Below, piece after piece: positions 32,126-37,153 of a stretch of DNA of 64,000 nucleotides. Numbering within the stretch: the stretch's first letter is position 1; every line of letters starts with the position of its first letter. The DNA is taken from contig NZ_JAKZFR010000002.1 in assembly GCF_022808935.1 (NCBI RefSeq), positions 124,001-188,000 of the forward strand. The letters run 5' to 3'. A program made the translations under genes and the position numbers. The DNA comes from Geothrix sp. SG200 (GTDB lineage: Bacteria; Acidobacteriota; Holophagae; Holophagales; Holophagaceae). The notes beneath the pieces are model-generated. The model was not told where the DNA came from. It worked only from the letters and a program-made list of their open reading frames with translations, and made no database searches.

Positions 32126-32613
32126 ACGCCTTCCACACCGGCATGGGCTTCGACGTCCACCGCTTCGCGGCGCCGGAGGAAGGCCGTGCGCTGATGCTCA
32201 TGGGCTGCCACATTCCGCATGACCGGGGCCTGGCGGGTCACAGCGACGCGGACGTCATGCTGCACGCCCTCATGGACGCGCTCCTGGGCGCCGCGGGCCT
32301 GGGCGACATCGGCCAGCATTTCCCCGACACGGATCCTACCTATCGGGGCGCCGACTCAGCGGGACTGCTGGAGCGAGTGATGGGCGATCTCGCCGAGCGG
32401 GGCTGGCGGGTGGTGAACGCCGATGTCTGCCTCATCGGCGAACGGCCCAAGATCGGCCCCCACCGCCAGGGCATGCGCGATCGCATCGCCCCTCTGCTGG
32501 GCATCCACAGCGAGGCCCTGAACGTGAAAGCCACCACCACGGAGAAGCTGGGCTTCACGGGGCGGGGCGAAGGTCTCGCGGCCCAGGCCGTGGTGCTGAT
32601 CGAGAGGCGTTAG
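32122..32613 (+). CDS. ispF: 2-C-methyl-D-erythritol 2,4-cyclodiphosphate synthase
   Basis: 163 residues, MEP-pathway enzyme for isoprenoid precursors. Metal ligands D11 and H13 (GFDVHRF) and the later H in GHSDADVMLHALMDALLG are present, as are GDIGQHFPDTDP and the C-terminal KATTTEKLGFTGRGEG. Translationally coupled to the histidine kinase before it; its last four bases overlap the convergent CCA-adding enzyme gene. Confidence 0.95.
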   Translation: MNAFHTGMGFDVHRFAAPEEGRALMLMGCHIPHDRGLAGHSDADVMLHALMDALLGAAGLGDIGQHFPDTDPTYRGADSAGLLERVMGDLAERGWRVVNADVCLIGERPKIGPHRQGMRDRIAPLLGIHSEALNVKATTTEKLGFTGRGEGLAAQAVVLIERR

Positions 32614-33959
32614 GGCTTTTCGAGCCTTCGGCGGGCCAGACCCGCGAGGGCGTCCGGCGTGTTGAGCGACGGGTCCTCCAGCACGGCCTCCAGCAGATCC
32701 CGCTGGAGCTCGCCCAGCCAGGGACCGCCTCCGCGTCCGGCCAGCGCCATGAGCGCCGCCCCGTCCAGGGCCAGGGCCCTCACCGAGAGGGGCGGAGCCG
32801 CGGCGGCCATGGCTTCGAGGCGGGCCAGGATGGCGGCGTGCTCCTGTTCCCGGGCCCCCACTTCCAGGCCCTTGGCCCGTTGATCCGCCAGACGGAACGT
32901 CTCCCAGCGCGCCAGGGTCAGTCCGTCCTCCTCGAGCCGCCGCAGGAAGCGCCGGCAGGCCGCGTCACTCCAATCCGCGGTCGGATGGATGCCGTGGTGG
33001 CGGACCAGGGCGAGGACGTCGCGTCGGAGCGCGTGGGCGGCCTTGAGCCGTTCCAGGAGGATGCCCGCGAGCTCCAGGGACCGGGCCTCGTGCCCATGGA
33101 ACCGGGCCTCACCCTCGTCCCCGAGGGTGCGAGCGCCGGGCTTGCCGGCATCATGCAGCAGAGCCGCCCAGCGCAGCCCAGGCTCGGCAGGAACCAGGCG
33201 CGCCACCTCCAGCGTGTGGCGCCACACATCCCACCGGTGATGCCGGTTCTGGCCGCAGCCGATCATGGGACGCAGCTCGACCAGCCAGAGATCCAGCAGC
33301 CCCGTCCGCGCCAGGAGGTCCAGCCCCCGGTGGGGCTCGGCTCCGCAGAGCAGCTTGGTGAGCTCCGCGAGGACCCGCTCGGCGGCCACCTTGCGGGCCA
33401 CCTCCAGCCGCTCGGGAATGGCCGCCAGGGTCCCGGCCTCCACCTCGAAGCCCAGTTGGGCCGCGAACCGGCAGGCCCGAAGGGTGCGGAGGCCGTCCTC
33501 GGCGAAGCGGCGAAGCGGATCGCCCACGGCCCGAAGAGTCCGCGTCTCCAGGTCGGCCCTGCCGCCGAAGGGATCCACCAGGTCACCACCACCCACCGGA
33601 AGGGCCATGGCGTTGATGGTGAAGTCGCGGCGGGACAGGTCCTCCTCCAGGCTGACGCCCAATCGCACCGTCTCGGGATGCCGCCCGTCCAGATAATCCC
33701 CATCGCTCCGGAACGTGGTGATCTCGATGGGCCGGTCCTCCAGCAGCACGGTGACTGTCCCGTGCTGCAGCCCCGTGGGAATCGCCTTCAGGCCCGCGGC
33801 CCGGGCCCGGTCCATCACGGCCTTCGGCATCAGCTTCGTGGCCAGGTCCCAGTCCGCGTGGGGACGCCCCAGCAGCTCATCGCGGACGGCGCCGCCGACC
33901 ACCACCAGCTCAGCCTCGGGCCCCAGGGCCTCCTCGAGGCGGCGCAGCGGGGCCCACAT
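32610..33959 (-). CDS. CCA tRNA nucleotidyltransferase with HD domain
   Basis: 449 residues, class II nucleotidyltransferase that adds or repairs the tRNA 3' CCA end. Head motifs are VVGGAVRDELLG and DWDLAT (catalytic Asp pair), the EDLSRRDFTINAMAL block, and the nucleotide-recognising RRFAEDGLRTLRACRFAAQLGF. A C-terminal HD domain (ALLHDAGK, VRHHG) adds a likely phosphohydrolase activity, as in E. coli Cca. Start ATG at 33959 shares one base with the upstream GNAT stop (TGATG). A pure poly(A) polymerase is the alternative. Confidence 0.88.
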   Translation of the reverse strand: MWAPLRRLEEALGPEAELVVVGGAVRDELLGRPHADWDLATKLMPKAVMDRARAAGLKAIPTGLQHGTVTVLLEDRPIEITTFRSDGDYLDGRHPETVRLGVSLEEDLSRRDFTINAMALPVGGGDLVDPFGGRADLETRTLRAVGDPLRRFAEDGLRTLRACRFAAQLGFEVEAGTLAAIPERLEVARKVAAERVLAELTKLLCGAEPHRGLDLLARTGLLDLWLVELRPMIGCGQNRHHRWDVWRHTLEVARLVPAEPGLRWAALLHDAGKPGARTLGDEGEARFHGHEARSLELAGILLERLKAAHALRRDVLALVRHHGIHPTADWSDAACRRFLRRLEEDGLTLARWETFRLADQRAKGLEVGAREQEHAAILARLEAMAAAAPPLSVRALALDGAALMALAGRGGGPWLGELQRDLLEAVLEDPSLNTPDALAGLARRRLEKP

Positions 33960-34441
33960 CAATCCGCGCCCTGTGCCAGCCGGGCCAGGGCCTCGCCCTC
34001 CACGCGGCAGGTGAGCCAGGGCCGCATGACCTTGGCGCCATGGGCCTCATAGAACTCGATGGCCGGCGTGTTCCAGTCCAGCACCTGCCAGACGAAGCGG
34101 GTCCAGCCCTCCTTCACGGCGAGCGCGGCCAAGTGCTGGAGCAGAGCCTTGCCGATGCCCTTGCCCCGGTAGGCCGGCCGCACGAACAGGTCCTCGAGGT
34201 AGATGCCCGGCTTCCCCTCCCAGGTGCTGAAGTTCAGGAACCAGAGCGCGAAGCCCGCGGGCTGGCCGTCCCACTCCGCCATGGTCACCTTCACCAGGGG
34301 GTGCTCCGAAAAGGCGTACCGATGGATGTCCGCCTCCGTGGCGACCGCCGCTTCCGGCTCCCGCTCGTAGTCCGCCAGTTCGCGGATGTACTGCAGGATC
34401 AGCGGAGCGTCGGAGGGAACGGCAGGGCGCAGGTTCAGCAT
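33959..34441 (-). CDS. GNAT family N-acetyltransferase (spermidine acetyltransferase-like)
   Basis: 160 residues with the GNAT core: the acetyl-CoA motif VRPAYRGKGIGKALLQHLA at about 88-106 and WNTPAIEFYEAHGAKVM. IYLEDLFVRPAYRGKGIGKAL and the N-terminal ELADYEREPE resemble diamine acetyltransferases of the SAT family, but the substrate is not proven. The gene reads into the CCA-adding enzyme by a TGATG overlap. It appears to have a leaderless start with TAGCAT six bases before its ATG. Confidence 0.85.
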   Translation of the reverse strand: MLNLRPAVPSDAPLILQYIRELADYEREPEAAVATEADIHRYAFSEHPLVKVTMAEWDGQPAGFALWFLNFSTWEGKPGIYLEDLFVRPAYRGKGIGKALLQHLAALAVKEGWTRFVWQVLDWNTPAIEFYEAHGAKVMRPWLTCRVEGEALARLAQGAD

Positions 34442-34446
34442 GGGTC

Positions 34447-34453
34447 TATGCTA
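34447..34453. promoter_or_regulatory. Overlapping divergent -10 elements with leaderless spacing
   Basis: The two divergent ATGs are only 17 bases apart. TATGCT (34447-34452, plus) and TAGCAT (minus, 34448-34453) overlap, each exactly six bases from the ATG it faces, so transcription would begin at or next to the start codons. Confidence 0.5.
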
Positions 34454-34458
34454 ACCGG

Positions 34459-35397
34459 ATGGACCGCGACACCGCCCTCCGCCTTCATGAGGCCATGCTC
34501 CTGACCCGGCTCACGGAAGAACGGCTGGTGAAGCTTTTCCGCCAGGGCAGGACCCTCGGCAGCATCTATCGCAGCCTGGGCCAGGAGGCCACCTCCTGCG
34601 CCACAGCCATGGCCCTCGGGCCCGACGACATGATCGGCCCCATGATCCGCAACCTGGGTTCCATGCTGGTCCGTGGCGCCACGCCGCTCGAGATCTTCCT
34701 CCAGTATCTGGGCCGCGCCACCGGCCCCACCGCGGGCCGGGAGCACAACAACCACTTCGGTGCCGTGGAAAGGGGCATCCTGGCCCCCACCTCCATGCTG
34801 GGCGCCCTCATCCCCGTGATGGCGGGCGTGGCCCTCAGCTTCCGCCAGAAGGGGGAGCGGCGCGTGGCCATGACCTGGATCGGCGACGGCGGCAGCTCGA
34901 CCGGAGCCTTCTACGAGGGCCTCAACTTCGCGGTGGTGCAGCAACTTCCCCTGATCGTCGTCGGGGAGTCCAACGGCTACGCCTTCTCCACGCCTCCGGA
35001 GCGCCAGATGGCCGGGCGGATGTCGGCCCGGTCCCAGGGGGCCTTCACCCTTACGGTGGACGGCAACGACGCCGCGGAGGTGTATGCCGCCAGCCTGCAG
35101 GCCCGCCAGCACTGCCTGGAGGGCAAGGGGCCGGTCTTCCTGGTCTGCGAGACCTTCCGCATGAAGGGCCACGCCGAGCATGACGACCAGCGCTACGTGG
35201 ATCCGGCGCTGCTGGCCGAGTGGGCTGCCAAGGACCCCCTGCCCCGCTTCGAGGCCTGGATGTCCCGCAAGCGCTGGATCCCTGATCCCGGGCTGAAGGC
35301 CCGCCTCGAGGACCGGCTCCAGCAGGAGGCGGAGGCCGCCCTGGGCGCCCCTTGGCCGGATCCGGCCACCCTGGAGCGCGGAGTGTTCTCTTCCTGA
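34459..35397 (+). CDS. Thiamine-diphosphate-dependent dehydrogenase E1 alpha subunit
   Basis: 312 residues of the pyruvate/branched-chain 2-oxoacid dehydrogenase E1-alpha family. The ThDP motif is GDGGSSTGAFYEGLNFA from residue 142 to ESN172, and GREHNNHFG and KGHAEHDDQRYVDP are in the usual places. Alpha chains act with an E1-beta chain, but none is adjacent, and no E2 or E3 gene is in the window, so the partner must be encoded elsewhere or the protein works differently. No ribosome site is seen, consistent with a leaderless start. A GGCTCAT/ATGAGCC hairpin follows at about 35433-35458. Confidence 0.85.
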   Translation: MDRDTALRLHEAMLLTRLTEERLVKLFRQGRTLGSIYRSLGQEATSCATAMALGPDDMIGPMIRNLGSMLVRGATPLEIFLQYLGRATGPTAGREHNNHFGAVERGILAPTSMLGALIPVMAGVALSFRQKGERRVAMTWIGDGGSSTGAFYEGLNFAVVQQLPLIVVGESNGYAFSTPPERQMAGRMSARSQGAFTLTVDGNDAAEVYAASLQARQHCLEGKGPVFLVCETFRMKGHAEHDDQRYVDPALLAEWAAKDPLPRFEAWMSRKRWIPDPGLKARLEDRLQQEAEAALGAPWPDPATLERGVFSS

Positions 35398-35498: not shown

Positions 35499-36680
35499 AT
35501 GGGGGATTACGTGTACGTTCTCGTTCTCAATGCAGGCTCTTCCAGCCTCAAGTTCAACCTCTTCGACATGGTCAAGGAGGTCTCCATCGCGGAGGGCATG
35601 GCCGAGCGCATCGGCCTGGCCGAGGCCAACCTCATCTGCGTCCTCGACGGCGAGAAGCGGAAGGAGACCCTTCCCCTTCCCAGCCACAAGGAGGCCCTCG
35701 AGGCCATCCTCGAGCGGCTCCACGCCAACGTGCTCCACGACACGCCCATCCACGCCGTGGGCCACCGTGTGGTGCATGGCGGACCGAAGTATGGGGACTC
35801 GGTCCTGGTGACCGATGAAGTGCTCCAGGACATCGACCATTTCGCGATGTACGCCCCGCTGCACAACCCTGCCAACGCGCTCGGCATCCGCACGGCCATG
35901 GCCGCCTTCCCCGAGGTACCGCACGTGGCGGTCTTCGACACGGCCTTCCACCACAACATCCCGGACCACGCCCGCACCTACGGCATCCCCTACGAAATGA
36001 GCCAGAAGTACGGCATCCGGCGCTACGGCTTCCACGGCACCAGCCACGCCTTCGTGGCCGCCCGCACGGCCATCCTGCTCTGCCGGCCCCTGCGCTCCTT
36101 GAAGGTCATCACCTGCCACATCGGCAACGGCACCAGCATCTGTGCCGTGGGCCAGGGCAAGAGCATGGACACCAGCATGGGCATGACCCCGCTCCAGGGC
36201 GTCATCATGGGCACCCGCTGCGGCACCATCGACCCGAGTGTGGTGGAGATGCTCATGGAGTACGAGCATCTGGACTACGATGGGATCACCAACCTGCTCA
36301 ACAAGAAATCCGGCCTGCTGGGCATCTCCGGCGTGTCCTCCGACTTCCGGGAGATCGAGCTGGCCGCCGACAGCGGCAACGACCGCGCCCGCCTGGCCCG
36401 GGACCTCCTGACCTACAACGTGCGCCAGTACATCGGCGCCTACGCCACGGTCCTGGACGGGGTGGACGCCATCACCTTCACCGCCGGCATCGGCACCCAC
36501 AGCACCTTCGTGCGGGCCAAGGTCTGCAGCAAGCTGGGTTTCCTGGGCGTGAAGCTGGATCCCGAGGCCAACGAGCACGGCACCGGGGAACGCATCATCA
36601 GCACGCCCGATTCCCGGGTGGTCGTGACGGTGGTGCCCACCAACGAGGAACTGATGATCGCGCGGGAGACCGTGCGGTAG
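35499..36680 (+). CDS. ackA: Acetate kinase
   Basis: 393 residues, interconverts acetate + ATP and acetyl phosphate + ADP. ASKHA landmarks: LNAGSSSLKFNLF at residues 9-21, GHRVVHGG, FDTAFH, RRYGFHGTSH, HIGNGTSICAV, GTRCGTIDPS, NKKSGLLGIS and FTAGIGTHS. Complete and normal length. pta is not beside it. The 101-base gap before it contains an inverted repeat and a TAGACT -10-like element at 35484-35489. Confidence 0.95.
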   Translation: MGDYVYVLVLNAGSSSLKFNLFDMVKEVSIAEGMAERIGLAEANLICVLDGEKRKETLPLPSHKEALEAILERLHANVLHDTPIHAVGHRVVHGGPKYGDSVLVTDEVLQDIDHFAMYAPLHNPANALGIRTAMAAFPEVPHVAVFDTAFHHNIPDHARTYGIPYEMSQKYGIRRYGFHGTSHAFVAARTAILLCRPLRSLKVITCHIGNGTSICAVGQGKSMDTSMGMTPLQGVIMGTRCGTIDPSVVEMLMEYEHLDYDGITNLLNKKSGLLGISGVSSDFREIELAADSGNDRARLARDLLTYNVRQYIGAYATVLDGVDAITFTAGIGTHSTFVRAKVCSKLGFLGVKLDPEANEHGTGERIISTPDSRVVVTVVPTNEELMIARETVR

Positions 36681-36742: not shown

Positions 36743-37153
36743 CTACTTGCCCTGGGCCTGCATCCGCTCGCCCCTGCGCTCGACACGCGAGCCGCGGCGC
36801 TCCTTGCGCTCGCCCCGGCGTTCCTGGCGCTCACCCTTGCGCTCCTGGGCCTCGCCCACTCTCTCGCGGCGCTCGCCGGCCTGCTGGAGGGCCTGGCCTT
36901 CGGCCACCTTGCCCTGGGCCTGGAGGGCCGCGCCCTTCCGCTCCATGCGGGCGCCCTGGCGCTGCTTGCGTTCGCCTTGCCGGTCGTTCCGCTCGCCCCG
37001 CCGCTCCTGACGCTCGCCCCGGCGCTCGATCCGCTCGCCGTGCCTCTCCACCTGCTGCCCGGTGGGCGGGGGCACGGGGGCCTGGGCCATGAGGGAGGCG
37101 CCGATGAGGCCCACCGCCAGGATGAGGGCCACGCGCTTCTGGGTGTTGGACAT
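36743..37153 (-). CDS. Secreted Arg/Glu-rich seven-residue-repeat protein
   Basis: 136 residues. A clear signal peptide (VALILAVGLIGASLMAQA) is followed by PVPPPTG and then a tract of near-perfect seven-residue repeats of the form xxRxGER (VERHGER, IERRGER, QERRGER, NDRQGER), an Ala/Gln-rich interruption, and more repeats to the end. The mature part is extremely charged and should form helix or coiled coil with a Gly in every turn pair. I do not recognise a family and give no function. AGGAG precedes the ATG. Located convergent to ackA. Confidence 0.7.
   Translation of the reverse strand: MSNTQKRVALILAVGLIGASLMAQAPVPPPTGQQVERHGERIERRGERQERRGERNDRQGERKQRQGARMERKGAALQAQGKVAEGQALQQAGERRERVGEAQERKGERQERRGERKERRGSRVERRGERMQAQGK

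Follow-up and report, generated by a model that had tools for sequence, protein, structure and literature searches.

A 17-base gap between two divergent genes of Geothrix is probably a bidirectional promoter serving two leaderless genes

The window (the whole 64,000-nucleotide stretch of DNA analysed here, positions 124001-188000 of contig 3 in the 3.36-Mb genome of Geothrix sp. SG200) contains a divergent gene pair whose start codons are separated by 17 bases, GGGTCTATGCTAACCGG, at positions 34442 to 34458. In its context the gap reads ...cagCAT, GGGTCTATGCTAACCGG, ATGgac..., the CAT being the start codon of a GNAT-family acetyltransferase gene on the minus strand and the ATG that of a pyruvate dehydrogenase E1-alpha-like gene on the plus strand (hereafter the GNAT and E1 genes). 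Of the named genomes that carry the E1 gene, those of G. paludis and G. terrae are the nearest. A CCA tRNA nucleotidyltransferase-like gene follows the GNAT gene, probably on the same transcript, and an acetate/propionate kinase gene is the next one on the plus side. Farther along, at 36743-37153 on the minus strand, there is an open reading frame with arginine/glutamate-rich repeats (ERRGERQERRGER). The features of the locus are as follows.

32610 to 33962, minus strand: CCA tRNA nucleotidyltransferase-like gene, overlapping the GNAT gene by 4 bases; its best NCBIfam match is under that family's cut-off
33959 to 34441, minus strand: GNAT-family acetyltransferase gene, 160 amino acids, predicted leaderless (PF00583, E 1.5e-21)
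34441, minus strand: predicted transcription start at the A of the ATG, inferred from the -7T at 34448; its complement T would be the -18T of the plus promoter (geometry as in the excerpts of PMC10268837)
34442 to 34458, no strand: intergenic gap of 17 bases, as read in the sequence
34447 to 34453, no strand: shared core TATGCTA with both overlapping -10 hexamers inside; conserved columns, and TATSCTA is rare in the 464 kb of this genome examined
34447 to 34452, plus strand: predicted -10 element TATGCT of the E1 gene (-12 to -7), a TANNNT with 6 bases to the ATG at 34459
34448 to 34453, minus strand: predicted -10 element TAGCAT of the GNAT gene (-12 to -7), a TANNNT with 6 bases to the ATG at 34441
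34459, plus strand: predicted transcription start at the A of the ATG, inferred from the -7T at 34452; its complement T would be the -18T of the minus promoter (geometry again as in those excerpts)
34459 to 35397, plus strand: pyruvate dehydrogenase E1-alpha-like gene, 312 amino acids, predicted leaderless (E1_dh, PF00676, E 1.2e-55)
35499 to 36680, plus strand: acetate/propionate kinase gene (TIGR00016, 482 bits against a cut-off of 293.4)

An earlier note on this DNA had pointed out that TATGCT and the overlapping TAGCAT each lie six bases from an ATG facing outward, and both the sequence and the starts of the reading frames bear this out exactly; the two hexamers, on the plus and minus strands respectively, overlap by five bases within TATGCTA. 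The chosen ATG of either gene is the first ATG, GTG or TTG after an in-frame stop and has no upstream in-frame alternative. Neither gene is preceded by a Shine-Dalgarno-like tetramer (GGAG, AGGA or GAGG, four to nine bases before the start), a signal present in 162 of the 363 genes of our sample. Inspection by eye found no TTGACA-like -35 match at the usual place on either side of the gap. The same note spoke of a seventeen-base promoter, which is right as the length of the gap and wrong as a polymerase footprint, since the latter must extend into both coding regions.

The leaderless signal is not confined to this pair. In 464 kb comprising the window and its surroundings, where genes were called with a purpose-written script and not with a standard gene finder, TANNNT stands exactly six bases before the start of 22 out of 362 genes, against 0 to 7 genes at each other distance up to 33; in 1000 shuffling trials the count at six averaged 2.3 and never exceeded 8. 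All 22 genes use ATG (282 of 363 do so overall) and a single one has a Shine-Dalgarno-like tetramer, far below the overall proportion given above. The GNAT and E1 genes are both among the 22. Judged from the sequence, this peak is the leaderless-gene signature described for Acidobacteria and other phyla in PMC3160421, the excerpts of which report such TA-led genes in three out of three Acidobacteria genomes, with a mean of 13.3%. The commonest leaderless hexamers in the genome are of the form TAGNCT. Another divergent pair, out of 72 sampled (L053, 6666-6696; own genome, C3:234666-234696), has TANNNT six bases before both ATGs, with separate, non-overlapping -10 elements and a gap of 29 bases.

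The whole arrangement can be written as CAT-N5-TANNNTA-N5-ATG. In this genome alone the pattern matches once, against no match for the reversed control, and when GTG starts are allowed the counts become 1 and 1; the single-genome count was therefore rejected as proof, being too weak by itself. Among 47 genomes of the genus, we found 65 sites against 6 for the reversed control (both summed over per-genome tables), and 54 of the 65 lie between two long open reading frames. Variants of the pattern in the same 47 genomes gave 8 sites with a gap of 15 bases and 7 with a gap of 19, while a gap of 18, counted in both orientations, gave 17 sites, four of them at gluQRS. The 65 sites consist of 38 GNAT/E1 pairs, 16 gluQRS pairs and 11 others that do not lie between two convincing genes. 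The 27 sites outside GNAT/E1 were all read individually; each of the 38 was either read as a locus or identified from its coordinates or from an identical 23-mer in a locus that had been read. A candidate third family, represented in two genomes (L147 and L175) by a pilin-like gene with a 17-base gap, was considered and rejected because the facing reading frame differs between them (180 versus 25 amino acids). A short gap arising by chance in a compact genome would agree with the even count obtained here once GTG starts are allowed. Nonetheless, the genus-wide excess of 65 over 6, together with the invariant columns and the recurrence at gluQRS described below, makes this explanation extremely improbable, and we judge it already refuted by the comparative data.

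The 17-base distance is largely constant at GNAT/E1 itself. It is found in 26 of the 30 genus loci with a GNAT gene, and in four of 14 loci from other genera of the family, where single loci have gaps of 19, 29 and 86 and the remaining seven lack an adjacent E1 gene. The locus of Geothrix fermentans DSM 14018 (L081) is another with a gap of 17. With named genomes added, 109 GNAT loci reduced to 57 distinct ones, from which the seven lacking an adjacent E1 gene were left out. The gap is 17 in 41 of the resulting 50 loci, 16, 19, 29 and 86 in one each (the locus scored as 29, L035, has its first in-frame ATG at 17), and 355 to 400 in five. Columns T6, A7, T8, C10, T11 and A12 of the gap are invariant across the 41 distinct gap-17 loci. 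In the 36 distinct genus-like sequences among them, columns 3, 6, 7, 8, 10, 11, 12 and 14 are invariant (8 of 17), the core TATSCTA varying only at one C/G column; just 2 of the 118 fourfold-degenerate sites of the two genes are invariant in the same 36. Two of these invariant columns, 3 and 14, fall outside the standard -10. On one contig (G042 contig 40, locus L015) the GNAT/E1 junction is present twice, inverted, near both contig ends (2099-2121 and 34604-34626), perhaps as an assembly artefact.

The five sequences with gaps of 355 to 400 form a single clade (support 100/100) inside the gap-17 genus in the protein tree, whose midpoint root serves for drawing only. The separated state looks derived, because its clade is nested within the gap-17 genus and gap-17 loci also occur in other genera. 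In this clade the plus hexamer is gone from its old place, which now reads CATTCA, and the GNAT side keeps TTGAAT at six bases. The E1 gene, now located behind an inserted reading frame, is preceded by AATGAT or its one-base shift ATGATC, with no clean TANNNT at six bases. The insert itself is a short reading frame between the GNAT and E1 genes in L019, L020, L025, L028 and L096, all from one Geothrix clade. A different arrangement was found in another genus of the family, with small genomes (0.9 to 1.2 Mb; L040, L042 and L044), where the gene opposite the GNAT core (CTATTCTA) is ArfB-like and starts 35 to 38 bases from the GNAT start; therefore, the core could perhaps work as well with a partner that has a short leader.

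These loci bear on the idea that a leaderless promoter operates in one direction only, the opposite hexamer being a by-product of near-symmetry and the second gene being transcribed, with a normal leader, from a promoter inside its neighbour. The ArfB-like partner, which needs no leaderless start on its side, would be in keeping with it, as would the abundance of single leaderless genes in this genome and the fact that TANNNTA is just one base longer than TANNNT, so that a second match comes cheap. Set against this, the distance to the ATG is exactly six on both sides, neither gene was called with a Shine-Dalgarno-like tetramer, 41 distinct loci preserve both the gap length and the TA-core columns, the plus hexamer has been lost where the plus gene has moved away, and the two-sided design is repeated at a second gene pair. 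We thus regard a one-sided promoter as unlikely.

The second pair consists of gluQRS (TIGR03838, above the cut-off) and, facing away from it, a membrane-protein gene whose product has hydrophobic stretches near its N-terminus and matches a methyltransferase weakly. We compared 37 distinct gluQRS loci. All 23 in which the two genes adjoin have the TATSCTA core (with a gap of 17 in 20, 18 in two and 16 in one), whereas it is missing from all 14 in which they are apart, the genome of the window (L203) being one of the latter. The 16 gluQRS sites counted with the 17-base pattern are at L152 (1501-1523), L155, L158, L167, L173, L174, L180, L182 to L187, L189, L191 and L193. Thus, the seven-base core and the distance between the starts are common to two unrelated gene pairs.

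The same recurrence could be read in another way, with the conserved block as the operator of a transcription factor and the real promoters located elsewhere. TATSCTA has the same orientation at the two unrelated pairs, including the asymmetric inner T8 and C10, and the genus-like GNAT/E1 sequences also keep columns 3 and 14 unchanged. However, TATSCTA occurs just three times in the 464 kb, and the two occurrences outside called genes are both shortly upstream of a start; dyad symmetry, assessed by eye, is confined to columns 3, 6, 7, 11, 12 and 15 of 17; and a bound repressor does not by itself demand a fixed gap of 17 bases. An operator in place of a promoter core seems to us very unlikely. 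One property of the core is unexplained, namely that the asymmetric TATSCTA is kept at both pairs though with TAGNCT hexamers a symmetric TAGNCTA would be possible.

Outside the genus the pattern shows no enrichment. A sample of 111 genomes of the phylum, searched with the slightly narrower TANSNTA, gave 28 sites against 24 for the control (again sums over per-genome tables), and none of the 23 sites read out of those 28 lies between two reading frames of at least 100 amino acids. In the absence of an excess over the control, the design seems to be confined to this group. Plasmids from other groups rich in leaderless genes, namely six records from Rhodococcus, Deinococcus and Thermus totalling 2.72 Mb, contained 3 sites versus 0 in the control, none of them between two long reading frames. 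The Thermus site adjoins carH, the annotated divergent neighbour of which starts 109 bases away.

The earlier note had also proposed that both genes share a divergent -10 core and that both messages start at the initiation codon. This prediction is backed by the spacing, the genome-wide TANNNT peak, the conserved gap and core and the second gene pair, and we consider it quite likely from this sequence evidence that the 17 bases constitute one bidirectional sigma-70-type promoter placed on the start codons of two leaderless genes. It would be made of two overlapping -10 elements, TATGCT on the plus strand and TAGCAT on the minus strand, to which RNA polymerase would bind in either of two opposite orientations. 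With the last T of each hexamer as -7, initiation would fall on the A of either ATG and the two starts, on opposite strands, would be 18 bp from each other, so that both mRNAs are predicted to be leaderless. The two promoters would share base pairs, the -7T of each with the -11A of the other and the +1A of each gene with the -18T of the other, and this sharing would fix the start-to-start gap at 17 bases. Features that weigh against this reading are the missing excess outside the genus, the asymmetry of the core, the invariance of columns 3 and 14, and the absence of a clean TANNNT before the E1 gene in the separated clade. The T at 34452 and the A at 34448, which provide the reciprocal -7T/-11A pairs, are invariant in the 41 distinct loci, and the A at 34459 and the T at 34441 (plus strand) agree with the +1A/-18T pairing if transcription starts at the ATGs. 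Polymerases cannot occupy both orientations at once, according to the excerpts of PMC12825309; hence, initiation of the two leaderless mRNAs would be alternating and mutually exclusive. Competition between the two genes, as the earlier note had put forward, may follow from this, but the low basal activity of bidirectional promoters described below would limit it.

Bidirectional promoters of bacteria were reportedly described by Warman et al. in 2021, and PMC10268837 and PMC12825309 follow up that work. In the excerpts of PMC10268837, 18 bp is the commonest spacing of bidirectional starts because -7T and -11A pair reciprocally and +1A pairs with -18T; those of PMC12825309 give the same preferred spacing and add that the E. 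coli bidirectional promoters tested have low basal activity, minimising interference. As far as these excerpts go, the Geothrix site resembles such promoters in its overlapping -10 elements on opposite strands, its predicted starts 18 bp apart and its -7T/-11A and +1A/-18T pairs. It differs from them in that their starts were mapped experimentally, whereas here the predicted starts are the start codons and the coding gap is only 17 bases. The class comprises sites with two mapped starts on opposite strands 7 to 25 bp apart, and the 18 bp predicted here falls within that range. A term search for "leaderless" found no mention of it in either paper.

Leaderless genes provide the other half of the comparison. 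The two genes are similar to the TA-led genes of Acidobacteria and Actinobacteria, as these appear in the excerpts of PMC3160421 and PMC3898074, since both have a TANNNT whose first T is about 12 bases ahead of the start codon and both lack a Shine-Dalgarno sequence; unlike those genes, which are described singly, they have a core in common. Divergent pairs with both mRNAs mapped or likely to be leaderless are found in prpD/Rv1129c of Mycobacterium tuberculosis (excerpts of PMC3898074) and in cvkR/cas12k of Anabaena (excerpts of PMC9938897), the latter 82 nt apart versus 17 here. In the titles and abstract openings of the open-access literature, with subscription papers mostly outside the search, we found no description of two leaderless genes served by a single -10 core. 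The bidirectional -10 element and the leaderless gene are both known; their fixed 17-base combination, conserved and recurrent, is new within that scope.

In Geothrix and its close relatives, this arrangement might tentatively be seen as a selected gene-pair module that merges the transcription and translation signals of two genes within the same 17 bases, a reading to which we give somewhat less than even weight. In such a module each start codon would supply the -18T of the other promoter, so that neither the length of the gap nor the start codons could drift without disturbing both genes. The predicted promoter itself, module or not, would combine a bidirectional -10 element with leaderless genes, both already known, in a very compact form, and the expectation is that whenever two leaderless genes share a -10 core their start codons will be 17 bases apart. 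Because dozens of genomes have the pair intact and in one clade it has been pulled apart, this group of bacteria may offer a natural system in which to relate the choice of direction by the polymerase to the expression of two genes.
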